Origin: a virus
Length of the DNA: 25,658 nt
IMG/VR virus record: IMGVR_UViG_3300024273_001259
Span: 1-25,658 of that record
Strand: one strand, 5' to 3'
In this document: one piece after another, positions 3,993 to 21,709 of the stretch
Layout: every line of letters starts with the position of its first letter
Position numbering within the stretch: position 1 is the stretch's first letter
The notes under the pieces: model-generated
What the model was told of the DNA's origin: nothing
The model's database searches: none
What the model saw: only the letters and a program-made list of their open reading frames with translations
Position numbers and translations under genes: made by a program

Positions 3993-5090
3993 CTATGCTA
4001 TCGCCTCACACTTCGTTGCTGATACTGCGTCTGGAGTCTTGTTGTCTTTGTAAAACCTAAGCAACTCACCTATACCTTTTTTAATGAAATTATCGCCGCG
4101 ATAGTAGTGTGTAAAGCCTTTGAACGACTCCAAATACATCTTCTTATTTATAGAGTGAATAAATAGTTCCTGTATCGATAGTCCATTTCTAGGATTAGTG
4201 CTGGAATAAATAAACATAAAATCCTCTACGACGTAATCCTTGTATTTGGTGACATTCTTAAAAAACTCAACTAGAATCTTTCTGTACAGCCCTGCTTGTA
4301 TGTAGTAGTTGTATTTAAGATACGCTTGGTTATAAAAAGAATAGAAGTCTCCGTCAGTCATAACTCCAGTTTTAATGTCAATTGGAGTTATAGTTTTATT
4401 GTCGTGATTAATGTCTATTGCATCAAGCATGCACTTGATCTCTACGCCGTTAACTTTCGCTAAAAACTTCCTCTGAAAAACAACCTGTCTACTGCTGCTA
4501 TTTTGAAATGAATCGCTAAAAATATAAATAGCCTTAAGTCTTAGAATTGCTTTTTTAGTGATAGCTAAGTCAAACCTCGTTATAATTTGAGTGTCAGCAT
4601 CAGCAGCTTTCAAAGCGTTTATATACTCTTGATAGTTCGCTAGTTTTCCGTGAAAGTTAGCTGAAGTCATTCCGTTCTTCATGAATCCTCCAGAGCCTAA
4701 AAAATGCTCTAGTATATCCTTGTCGATGCCCATAAAGTTTGTGAAGGAAAGTTTCTCAACAATAGACTCAATTGCCAGTTCAGTAATAGTTCCGCTTCCA
4801 GGGATTTTATCTACTGTTTTTACATAGTCAGGAATGCCTGACAACCTATTGCTAATAACATCGTCAGTTATACTTCCCAATACAACGCCTCTTAGCTTTC
4901 CAATACTCGCTACGTTTGCGTTTACGGCAAGTATTCCAACTTTCTCGATATCACTAAGCCTACTGTAAGATACTGCAGGATACGCCCTGTATTCCTTCTC
5001 GTTCATCCTCATAACTTCAACTGTCATTCCTTGAGCCTTTTCTACTTCTGTGTTTTTAGTTTCCACTCCGTTTATTCTGTCTTCGCTCAT
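3993..5090 (-). CDS. PD-(D/E)XK nuclease (RecB/Cas4-like)
   Basis: A 365 aa protein carrying the core of a PD-(D/E)XK nuclease. The catalytic signature is D223 (in CMLDAID), then D238-I239-K240 in PIDIKTG, followed by the helix with Q265 (YYIQAGLY) typical of RecB/Cas4-like exonucleases. The N-terminal YPAVSYSRLSDIEK motif (about residues 37-50) is also typical of phage members of this family. These enzymes cut or resect DNA with divalent metal, usually in recombination. The context supports this: it lies downstream of primase, SSB and the Sak4-like ATPase in one transcription direction. It could be a RecB-like exonuclease paired with the recombinase, or a branched-DNA nuclease; the sequence does not decide. 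Confidence 0.85.
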   Translation of the reverse strand: MSEDRINGVETKNTEVEKAQGMTVEVMRMNEKEYRAYPAVSYSRLSDIEKVGILAVNANVASIGKLRGVVLGSITDDVISNRLSGIPDYVKTVDKIPGSGTITELAIESIVEKLSFTNFMGIDKDILEHFLGSGGFMKNGMTSANFHGKLANYQEYINALKAADADTQIITRFDLAITKKAILRLKAIYIFSDSFQNSSSRQVVFQRKFLAKVNGVEIKCMLDAIDINHDNKTITPIDIKTGVMTDGDFYSFYNQAYLKYNYYIQAGLYRKILVEFFKNVTKYKDYVVEDFMFIYSSTNPRNGLSIQELFIHSINKKMYLESFKGFTHYYRGDNFIKKGIGELLRFYKDNKTPDAVSATKCEAIA

Positions 5091-5610: not shown

Positions 5611-6632
5611 AGCTGTTCTTCTTTAGATTTTAAAATCACTCTCATTAAGATCTCAGAAGCTTCTTGATGACCGTGTTTAGAACACAGGTCGCTAAAATCC
5701 TTGCATCCTGTTTCTTCAGGTATGACTAAATTAATCACATTACTAAAGCGACGTATTAGTTTTTGAGCAGCATTTTGCCCCCAATTCGTTTCTTTATCAT
5801 AATCGTTGTCCATTAGTATGTAAACGTCAGTGAATCGGTTTATAACCTCACTCATTACTGATTCTTTTGGAGTTGTTGTTTCTGATTGAAACGCTGTAGA
5901 CGCTAGTGAAAGGTTCTTGATTATGCAGAGAGCATCTTTTCTTGAGGAAGTGATAATTACAGTTTCAGCTTTACGTGGCAGTTGTTCCCACATCTCCCAA
6001 ACAGAACCGTTGTTGTTATTTATCCATTTCAAACAAGAGCTTTTAGGCTGGTAGATCTTGATGGTTACATCTCCGTCTTTTCGCTCTAAGAAAGCATAAG
6101 AAAGCTTTTCTGCTATAAACATTTTTAAGCCAATAAAGAAGTGGCTAATCGGGATTATATTCGCGAATCTTAAATCTTCTTCGGTTAGATTGTACTGGCT
6201 CCAATACTCGTAGTCATTACTATTAAAGCTTCTTTTTGTTACGTTTATATCTACATTTCCAGAAACAGATATATTACTCCTTGGATTGTTGAAATCAGCC
6301 TTTTTAGAGGATATCTTACTAGAGTCAAAGTAGTTAAACTCAGCTGTTAGGGAAAAGTCTCTTACTATCATCAGTAAAGCGTCATTAAAATTTACTTTAT
6401 TCAGCTTCATTACAAATGTAATGGCATTACCTTTTTCTCCTGTAGCAAAGTCAACGAAGAATCCTTTTTCGTAAACTATAAAACTAGGGTTCTTGTCGTT
6501 CCTGAAAGGAGAGCTAAACGGCGTATTAAATTTAAACTTAGCGTCTGAATACTTTAGAAATATATTTACATTAGACACGAAGGACTGGACGTTTTCCGCC
6601 GTAACTGGCAGTAGACTCTTGGATAGCTCCAT
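5601..6632 (-). CDS. dnaG: DnaG-type primase with TOPRIM domain, degenerate zinc-binding site
   Basis: A phage primase that makes RNA primers at the fork. With the start chosen here it is 343 aa. Residues 36-51 (NTPFSSPFRNDKNPSF) match the CHC2-type N-terminal primase domain (usual pattern x-C-P-F-H-x-D-x-x-P-S), but the metal-binding Cys/His are absent. FVDFATGEKGN follows as in DnaG. The TOPRIM part is recognisable by IITSSRKDALCI (about 227-238) and ILMDNDYD with D275, D277 and D279, then CKDFSDLC. The normal catalytic Glu of TOPRIM motif I is replaced. The ATG at 6632 is preferred because TTTTAAAAAACAACAAACA stands directly before it, like other leaders here; the longer frame begins with TTG/ATG at 6665/6662 inside a 13-bp hairpin stem. 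Confidence 0.85.
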   Translation of the reverse strand: MELSKSLLPVTAENVQSFVSNVNIFLKYSDAKFKFNTPFSSPFRNDKNPSFIVYEKGFFVDFATGEKGNAITFVMKLNKVNFNDALLMIVRDFSLTAEFNYFDSSKISSKKADFNNPRSNISVSGNVDINVTKRSFNSNDYEYWSQYNLTEEDLRFANIIPISHFFIGLKMFIAEKLSYAFLERKDGDVTIKIYQPKSSCLKWINNNNGSVWEMWEQLPRKAETVIITSSRKDALCIIKNLSLASTAFQSETTTPKESVMSEVINRFTDVYILMDNDYDKETNWGQNAAQKLIRRFSNVINLVIPEETGCKDFSDLCSKHGHQEASEILMRVILKSKEEQLCS

Positions 6633-20858: not shown

Positions 20859-20938
20859 TGAAGATTCCAGGAATCGAACCTGTCACACACATATCGTGTA
20901 CACGATTTGTATGCCAATACCTATTCTAAAAATATTTC
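20859..20938 (-). tRNA. Divergent tRNA-like element C with over-long anticodon-type hairpin
   Basis: A T-arm (CAGG-TTCGATT-CCTG, 20882-20868) followed by a candidate 3' acceptor strand AATCTTC-A (20866-20859). Upstream, a hairpin of 11 positions with one mismatch (CATACAAATCG-TGTACA-CGATATGTGTG, 20913-20886) occupies the anticodon-arm position but is twice the normal length. The candidate 5' acceptor GAAATATT (20938-20931) pairs only partly, and no D-arm is clear. It is either a degenerate tRNA or a tRNA-like decoy, and I cannot assign an amino acid. Confidence 0.35.
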
Positions 20939-20999: not shown

Positions 21000-21141
21000 T
21001 TAGGGAGCTTAACGCGCTCCCAAGTCTCGTCTCTACGCTGCCAATCTCATTGGAGCGTTGAAAAGGTTTATAACTTTTGCAGTTATGTTTAAATCAATTC
21101 TCTTTACTACTTGTGTATTGCTGTCAAAACCGGTCGGCCCC
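21000..21141 (-). ncRNA. ssrA: tmRNA coding piece (5' half) with tag
   Basis: Starts GGGGCCG-ACC-GGTTTTGACAG. The tag frame is 21080-21033: GCA start codon after ATAACT, reading AKVINLFNAPMRLAA and a TAG stop. The LAA end is the usual ClpXP-type signal. The tag's 3' half folds as P5: CGCTCCAA-TGAGA-TTGGCAGCG. It is followed by a GGGAGC-GCGTTAA-GCTCCC hairpin (21021-21003). The exact 3' end is unknown. Confidence 0.75.
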
Positions 21142-21203
21142 ATTAATTTTGGTTATTTATACATCGGCTAACCAAACCAACACGCTATACACGGCACGTT
21201 TCG
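21142..21203 (-). other. tmRNA intervening segment (62 nt)
   Basis: Lies between the discriminator A of the acceptor piece and the G1 of the coding piece. It would be removed by RNase P and a 3' processing nuclease, as in known permuted tmRNA genes. Confidence 0.65.
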
Positions 21204-21268
21204 TGGAGCCGGGGAGAGTCGAACTCCCGTCCAAACAAAAACTCATAATAAGTCAACAAATCAATTCG
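21204..21268 (-). ncRNA. ssrA: tmRNA acceptor piece (3' half)
   Basis: Holds GAATTGATTTGTTGACTTAT, then the P2 strand TTATTAT, then GGAC, the T-arm GGGAG-TTCGACT-CTCCC (21228-21212) and the acceptor strand CGGCTCC with discriminator A at 21204. The 5' boundary is not fixed by the sequence; it begins just after tRNA-like element A, whose 3' end is at 21269. The 3' end must be trimmed and CCA added. Confidence 0.7.
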
Positions 21269-21370
21269 CAGGCAAGGGAGGATTCGAACCTCCGACCTCT
21301 TGTAGTGTACTTAATGAGTCGCGATGACCCAGGTTCCAAACAAGCGCTCTACCAACTGAGCTACAATCCC
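21269..21370 (-). tRNA. tRNA-like gene A with 29-nt insertion in the anticodon loop
   Basis: The D-arm GCTC-AGTTGGTA-GAGC, the variable loop AGGTC and the T-arm GGAGG-TTCGAAT-CCTCC are standard. The anticodon stem CTTGT/ACAAG is perfect, but the loop is 36 nt instead of 7 and contains an internal hairpin GGGTC-ATCGC-GACTC. Removing 29 nt at the usual 37/38 position would leave TTGGAA plus one base, with a GGA-like anticodon. Acceptor strands GGGATTG and CTTGCCT pair only at positions 1-3 (one G-U) and 7. It could be a tRNA with an intron, a decoy or a degenerate copy. Confidence 0.5.
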
Positions 21371-21601: not shown

Positions 21602-21709
21602 TACGGATGACGTGAATCGAACACGCGGCTCCCGTTTTGTTTTTCACTCTCATTGCACGCTGTACACACGCTAACAAAACTTTGACTCTACCAACTGAGT
21701 TACATCCGC
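21602..21709 (-). tRNA. tRNA-like gene B with about 35 extra nt in the anticodon arm
   Basis: Full acceptor pairing (GCGGATG with CATCCGT, one G-U), D-arm ACTC-AGTTGGTA-GAGT and T-arm GCGTG-TTCGATT-CACGT, with discriminator A at 21602. The middle is 57 nt rather than about 22. GTTTTGTT pairs with AACAAAAC over 8 bp around a 31-nt loop that itself contains a wobble-rich hairpin (GCGTGT-GTACA-GCGTGC). Four nt separate D-stem from this stem instead of one. No valid anticodon loop remains, so it is either processed or not used for decoding. Confidence 0.55.

Follow-up and report, generated by a model that had tools for sequence, protein, structure and literature searches.

The question raised by this locus is whether the window (the whole 25,658-nucleotide stretch of viral DNA that was analyzed) carries a genuine circularly permuted tmRNA gene, in which the 3' half is encoded upstream of the 5' half, as an earlier note had proposed, and, if so, what such a gene might do in a phage. 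ARAGORN called a permuted gene ('tmRNA*') at c[20942,21295] with the tag AKVINLFNAPMRLAA*, and reported a tmRNA in none of 300 dinucleotide-shuffled copies of the window. When the whole window was searched against all Rfam families, the merged permuted model (RF04321, tmRNA_permuted) gave an end-to-end match at 21256-21033, scoring 60.5 bits against a cut-off of 47 (E 1.3e-9), and hence a covariance-model match in permuted order. The models that the earlier note had named alongside ARAGORN fared less well: the standard one-piece model (RF00023) and the alpha and cyano lineage models (alpha_tmRNA, cyano_tmRNA) had no listing for the window at E<=1, and beta_tmRNA (RF01850) gave a partial match of 37.4 bits, under its cut-off of 84. 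The gene is recognized at cut-off only by RF04321, and by none of the three lineage models. Given the permuted ARAGORN call and the RF04321 match over cut-off, the feature is a genuine circularly permuted two-piece tmRNA gene.

The gene lies entirely on the minus strand, to which all feature coordinates below refer; the earlier note had the positions of the acceptor, P2, tag and hairpin elements as we find them, and left the strand unstated. Read 5' to 3' on that strand, the order is GAATTGATTTGTTGACTTATTATGAG-TTTTTGTTTGGAC-GGGAG-TTCGACT-CTCCC-CGGCTCC-A, then 62 nt, then GGGGCCG-ACC-GGTTTTGACAG-...-GTAGTAA-...-GCA, the tag AKVINLFNAPMRLAA, TAG, and a GGGAGC/GCTCCC hairpin. The acceptor piece, or 3' half (21204..21268; ARAGORN, RF04321 and T-stem covariation, with the 5' end placed by the abutting tRNA-like gene), contains the P2 3' strands, GGAC, the T arm GGGAG-TTCGACT-CTCCC (21228..21212), the acceptor 3' strand CGGCTCC (21211..21205) and the discriminator A73 (21204), and encodes no CCA. 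The coding piece, or 5' half (21001..21141; ARAGORN and RF04321, with the 3' end provisionally placed after the hairpin), contains the acceptor 5' strand GGGGCCG (21135..21141), a D-like region, the P2 5' strands, the tag frame and the downstream hairpin. As had been claimed, all seven acceptor pairs form between GGGGCCG and 21205-21211, including G3-U70. The P2 5' strands (21092..21110) consist of GTAGTAA (21110..21104) and the following AGAATTGATT, and the P2 3' strands (21245..21267) of TTATTAT (21251..21245) and the upstream GAATTGATTT. The tag frame (21033..21080) runs from the resume codon GCA through AKVINLFNAPMRLAA to the stop TAG. After it stands the hairpin GGGAGC-GCGUUAA-GCUCCC (21003..21021; fold -12 kcal/mol, z -3.3), which may be a P5-type or a 3'-end hairpin; several relatives (L062, L070-L072, L077, L097) have hairpins with similar GCG-loops on different stems.

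Between A73 and G1 lies an intervening segment (21142..21203) of the 62 nt previously noted, 38-165 nt long in relatives, which on the example of known permuted tmRNAs is presumed to be removed on maturation. This segment and its counterpart in L037, L075 and L077 share a GCCGTGTA-like motif, and a hairpin in it has arms that are changed yet matching among these four (GGTTA/TAACC, AGTCA/TGACT), so that the segment may have a role of its own.

Using DNA patterns on conserved letters together with searches for relatives, we gathered a family of 24 Bacteroidota phage and prophage members, including the window gene and some near-duplicates. Because the strict patterns mostly picked up members with TTTGAC and TTTGGACG, the search biases both the apparent size of the family and the conservation seen at those letters. 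RF04321 matched over its cut-off in 17/17 loci of one Rfam batch. ARAGORN read the wrong tag frame in L069 and L075 and missed the tmRNA in several members that Rfam recognized.

The earlier note had looked to related phages for compensatory changes in the acceptor and P2 pairs; the acceptor stem shows such changes, and P2 shows partner specificity. When the 17 members with 15-residue tags were aligned without gaps, pairing in the acceptor and T stems held in 100% of cells, and four pairs showed double changes; acceptor pair 5 occurred as four standard pair types, pair 6 as three, and two T-stem pairs as two or three, while G3-U70 was present in 17/17 sequences. The covariation score of the whole structure was 0.301, compared with 0.122 for shuffles (0/500 reached the observed value) and <=0.094 for slid partners. 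Since cofolding the joined pieces often scrambled P2, this helix was assessed by swapping partners across the family: the mean energy with the own partner was -10.7 versus -8.0 with permuted partners, and none of 20,000 permutations reached the own-partner value, demonstrating partner specificity for the set as a whole, in which individual helices are often weak (in 11/23 cases the own partner is not among the top three when ranked with the swaps). The best conserved part of the family RNA is the tRNA-like domain, with an identity of 0.82 within the family, 0.78 to other permuted phages and 0.74 to hosts, over a length too short to settle ancestry.

What is new here is a coherent family that leaves no room for pseudoknot PK1, has a covarying hairpin within the tag frame and conserves a tag whose residue at position -4 is basic. 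The resume codon stands 61 nt from the 5' end in the window and 57-64 nt across the family; the corresponding distances are about 85 in L039, a permuted gene of cell-like type, and about 96 in the chromosomal tmRNA of Sunxiuqinia. The PK1-position stem of the RF04321 model is unpaired or deleted in the window gene, and in the family an extended P2 fills the space of PK1. PK1 is an accessory and not a defining element, as mitochondrial tmRNA forms lack it. Permuted phage tmRNAs with GEQVELAMAA-like tags (e.g., L041) have an equally short 5' arm, and a short arm may be general for phages. These belong to a second permuted phage group (L038, L040, L041, L047, L078, L079, L086) with short conserved tags of the form G[EA]QVE[LM]AMAA.

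An open tag frame with a stop codon is present in 24/24 members, and the encoded peptides are mostly related. They are 10-17 residues long, mostly 13-17, many being of the KV[IV]NLFNAPLRAVA type. Position -4 is R or K in 22/24 members (AGA, CGT or AAA in the cases read), whereas it is A in the four Bacteroidota one-piece tags seen. The pN/pS of the tag frame was 0.74 (bootstrap 95% 0.57-0.99; 16 tags) versus 0.99 and 1.06 in the shifted frames, and because the upper limit reaches 0.99 there is no more than modest support for selection on the peptide. The in-tag hairpin (21035..21058; fold -10.7 kcal/mol, z -3.3) is formed by the second half of the frame and takes in the first base of the stop codon. 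RNAalifold found no consensus for the tag block, and named pairs were counted instead: double changes occur at 5/9 of these in the 17 sequences. This RNA hairpin may explain part of the conservation of the tag frame.

What phage carries the gene, and which tmRNA do its hosts use? The window record, a 25.7-kb virus, encodes a primase, a DNA ligase, a Sak4-like protein, a helicase-like protein and a MoxR-type ATPase. The matches of the primase are almost exclusively to crAss-like, Bacteroides, Flavobacterium and Cellulophaga phages, the start codons have A/T-rich leaders with no obvious Shine-Dalgarno sequence, and the RNA has relatives in Maribacter phage Panino, crAss-like cr125_1, Chryseobacterium phage MA9V-3 and a prophage of Sunxiuqinia indica, all of which bears out the proposed assignment to a Bacteroidota phage. 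A near-identity search of the window DNA against phage records gave no match. Near its permuted tmRNA, cr125_1 (L035) also has a RAGATH-7 motif (672-878), two Hatchet ribozymes (941-1066, 4433-4561) and a RAGATH-9 motif (5792-5960), the last overlapping the start of the annotated tmRNA.

The host bacteria use an ordinary one-piece tmRNA, which scored over cut-off in 96/99 sampled Bacteroidota genomes. A permuted tmRNA did so in 2/395, both times within phage-like regions. In Sunxiuqinia indica the permuted member lies inside an integrated prophage and a one-piece tmRNA is on the chromosome; PHROGs confirmed RecT-like, SbcC-like and anti-repressor genes in this prophage, and its integrase-like gene adjoins apparent chromosomal sigma and anti-sigma factor genes (identities read from translations). 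In the second genome the permuted member adjoins phage-like replication genes, also identified from their translations. The chromosomal Sunxiuqinia gene (L088, tag GENNYALAA) exemplifies the host form (RF00023): it has the same tRNA-like domain, with GGTTTTGACAG and GTTTGGAC, and belongs to the same pathway, but has the standard gene order, a longer 5' arm and a 9-residue tag ending in ALAA. No smpB was found in the 10 phage records searched, several of which are fragments.

A separate question is whether the RNA tags proteins at all. The strong conservation of the tRNA-like domain would also be expected of a decoy in which this domain forms without tagging and titrates SmpB or alanyl-tRNA synthetase, thereby blocking host trans-translation. 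PK1, for which there is no room here, promotes tagging in E. coli. A phage RNA with such an effect has a precedent in mycobacteriophage DS6A, whose RNA is domain-only (PMC11915505, PMC4131195). Nevertheless, the open tag frame with its stop in every member, the mostly related tags, and the mild purifying selection confined to the tag frame speak for a translated tag, and we regard a decoy as unlikely.

Even less likely is that the locus is a piece of captured or decaying sequence retained for integration (attP), as was suggested for Panino (PMC11590407). Phages commonly integrate at tmRNA genes, the Panino authors report an integrase in their phage, and the Sunxiuqinia prophage has an integrase-like gene; however, with one-piece genes in the hosts a permuted copy could not simply regenerate the gene it had disrupted, and the compensatory changes argue for function, the covariation disfavoring decay. 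As for chance resemblance, or a tRNA mis-called as a tmRNA, flanking tRNA-like genes do overlap the ARAGORN call, but the E-value, the absence of calls in shuffled windows, the RF04321 matches throughout the batch of relatives and their covariation rule this out, leaving it a negligible probability. The window gene is thus very probably a functional two-piece tmRNA encoded by the phage, one of a family found in Bacteroidota phages.

How might such a functional tmRNA be made and used? On a single transcript the acceptor half would precede the coding half, and host tRNA enzymes would do the cutting. The 5' end of the acceptor piece would be released when the tRNA-like element upstream of it is processed at its own 3' end; the 3' end of the acceptor piece would be completed by RNase Z-type trimming and CCA addition, and RNase P cleavage at G1 would generate the 5' end of the coding piece. 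The acceptor stem and the extended P2 helix, at the usual place of PK1, would hold the two pieces together. Once G3-U70 had directed its charging with alanine and host SmpB had bound it, the RNA would enter a stalled ribosome, switch it to the GCA resume codon, append AKVINLFNAPMRLAA and permit release at the stop codon; the fate of the tagged protein likewise belongs to the model. Because the hosts have a one-piece tmRNA and none of the 10 phage records encodes SmpB, the simplest and most likely reading has tRNA enzymes cutting the phage RNA, which then works together with host SmpB.

The tRNA-like gene directly upstream of the tmRNA (21269..21370; RF00005, 50.5 bits) is a possible processing signal. 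In the window, as in L034, L067, L070, L077, L096 and L097, the distance from the end of a tRNA gene to the tmRNA match downstream of it is 4-15 nt, and 3' processing of that tRNA would therefore create the 5' end of the acceptor piece. Against this, a tRNA is detectable directly upstream in only these 7 of about 20 loci scanned, and the element in the window has three acceptor mismatches and an insert. Two such tRNA-like genes are in fact present (21269-21370 and 21602-21709), with about 30 and 50 nt, respectively, inserted in the anticodon region, and similarly over-long tRNA matches adjoin the tmRNAs of L096 (1722-1827) and L070 (57-169). Downstream of the tmRNA, at 20868-20932, lies a degenerate tRNA-like stretch, ACAGGTTCGATTCCTGG, with the palindromic ATCGTGTACACGAT, which Rfam does not recognize.

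The earlier note had thought a permuted tmRNA in this phage group undescribed, and as worded this does not hold: permuted phage tmRNAs were published in 2022 (PMC9004378), and some members of the present family were already annotated in GenBank. That study, which presented phage Melnitz, found a tmRNA in 402 of 18,146 phages and a two-piece form in 53 of 133 unique structures (PMC9004378), and a tmRNA database holds 79 bacteriophage sequences (PMC11915505). Melnitz, a Methylophilales phage, and pelagimyophages share with our family a permuted two-piece ssrA in a phage genome (PMC9004378); their forms resemble SAR11/alphaproteobacterial ones, while the present family occurs in Bacteroidota phages. 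The other permuted phage group seen here, which we do not equate with Melnitz, has tags of about 10 residues such as GEQVELAMAA, in contrast to the mostly 13-17 residues, many of the KVINLFNAPLRAVA type, of this family.

Panino (PP540027), cr125_1 (NC_055900) and MA9V-3 (PV245944) belong to the family by their similar tRNA-like domain and P2 and short 5' arm, and ARAGORN reads the annotated SsrA of all three as permuted. They are annotated only as SsrA, and the readable text on them mentions neither permutation nor the family features; the Panino authors report an SsrA gene and suggest a role in integration (PMC11590407). In open-access main text we found no paper that calls a Bacteroidota-phage tmRNA permuted or treats these RNAs as a family. 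The cellular permuted tmRNAs of alpha- and betaproteobacteria and cyanobacteria (RF01849, RF01850, RF01851) have the same gene order, acceptor, T arm, P2, resume codon and tag, but their models fail to recognize the window gene at their cut-offs, and the merged permuted model has a PK1-position stem that the window gene lacks.

With regard to the origin of the permutation, using the MoxR-type ATPase as a probe we found phage relatives that carry one-piece, not permuted, tmRNAs. These phages and cultured Flavobacterium psychrophilum and Cellulophaga phages have one-piece tmRNAs with tags of 30-38 residues, which share NAQ[IV]xANM and in many cases VFSLL elements; related Bacteroidota phages thus carry both forms. 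Read from the conserved resume codon, these long tags are conserved (e.g., GNKTTRVVALGANAQIEANMNKVFSLLGEEVAVAA), and the loci comprise L013-L016, L018, L020-L022, L025 and L032 together with L122 (FpV4), L123 (phi38:1), L124 (Calle_3) and L125 (phi14:2). ARAGORN shortens or misses such tmRNAs, and the phi14:2 tmRNA scores just under the Rfam cut-off. Several are unannotated, among them those of F. psychrophilum phage FpV4 and of phi38:1; a Calle tmRNA, one-piece on our analysis, was reported in a study of North Sea flavobacterial phages (PMC8776804). In crAss-like cr128_1 (L126) a group I intron (997-1266; RF00028, 86 bits) lies just downstream of a stretch resembling part of a one-piece phage tmRNA, which is possibly intron-split.

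The permuted DNSKVISIAPL resembles the one-piece DNKVISL, a likeness of letters that is suggestive only. A broader proposal, which we hold to be possible though rather doubtful, is that Bacteroidota phages host their own two-piece tmRNA lineage without PK1, that selection on its long conserved tag (basic residue at -4, KV[IV]NLF core) favored a fate different from routine ALAA degradation, and that the permutation may have arisen inside phages and not via proteobacterial or cyanobacterial transfer, the last in view of the one-piece tmRNAs with long conserved tags in relatives of these phages (DNKVISL... beside permuted DNSKVISI...).

A phage group with one-piece and permuted forms side by side is useful for asking how permutation arises, and the family provides a compact natural tmRNA without room for PK1. 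Bacteroidota phages, including crAss-like gut phages, bring with them a tmRNA of a different architecture from that of their hosts, and given cultured representatives such as Maribacter phage Panino and Chryseobacterium phage MA9V-3, phage replacement or re-programming of host ribosome rescue, and the role of the tag, are directly testable.
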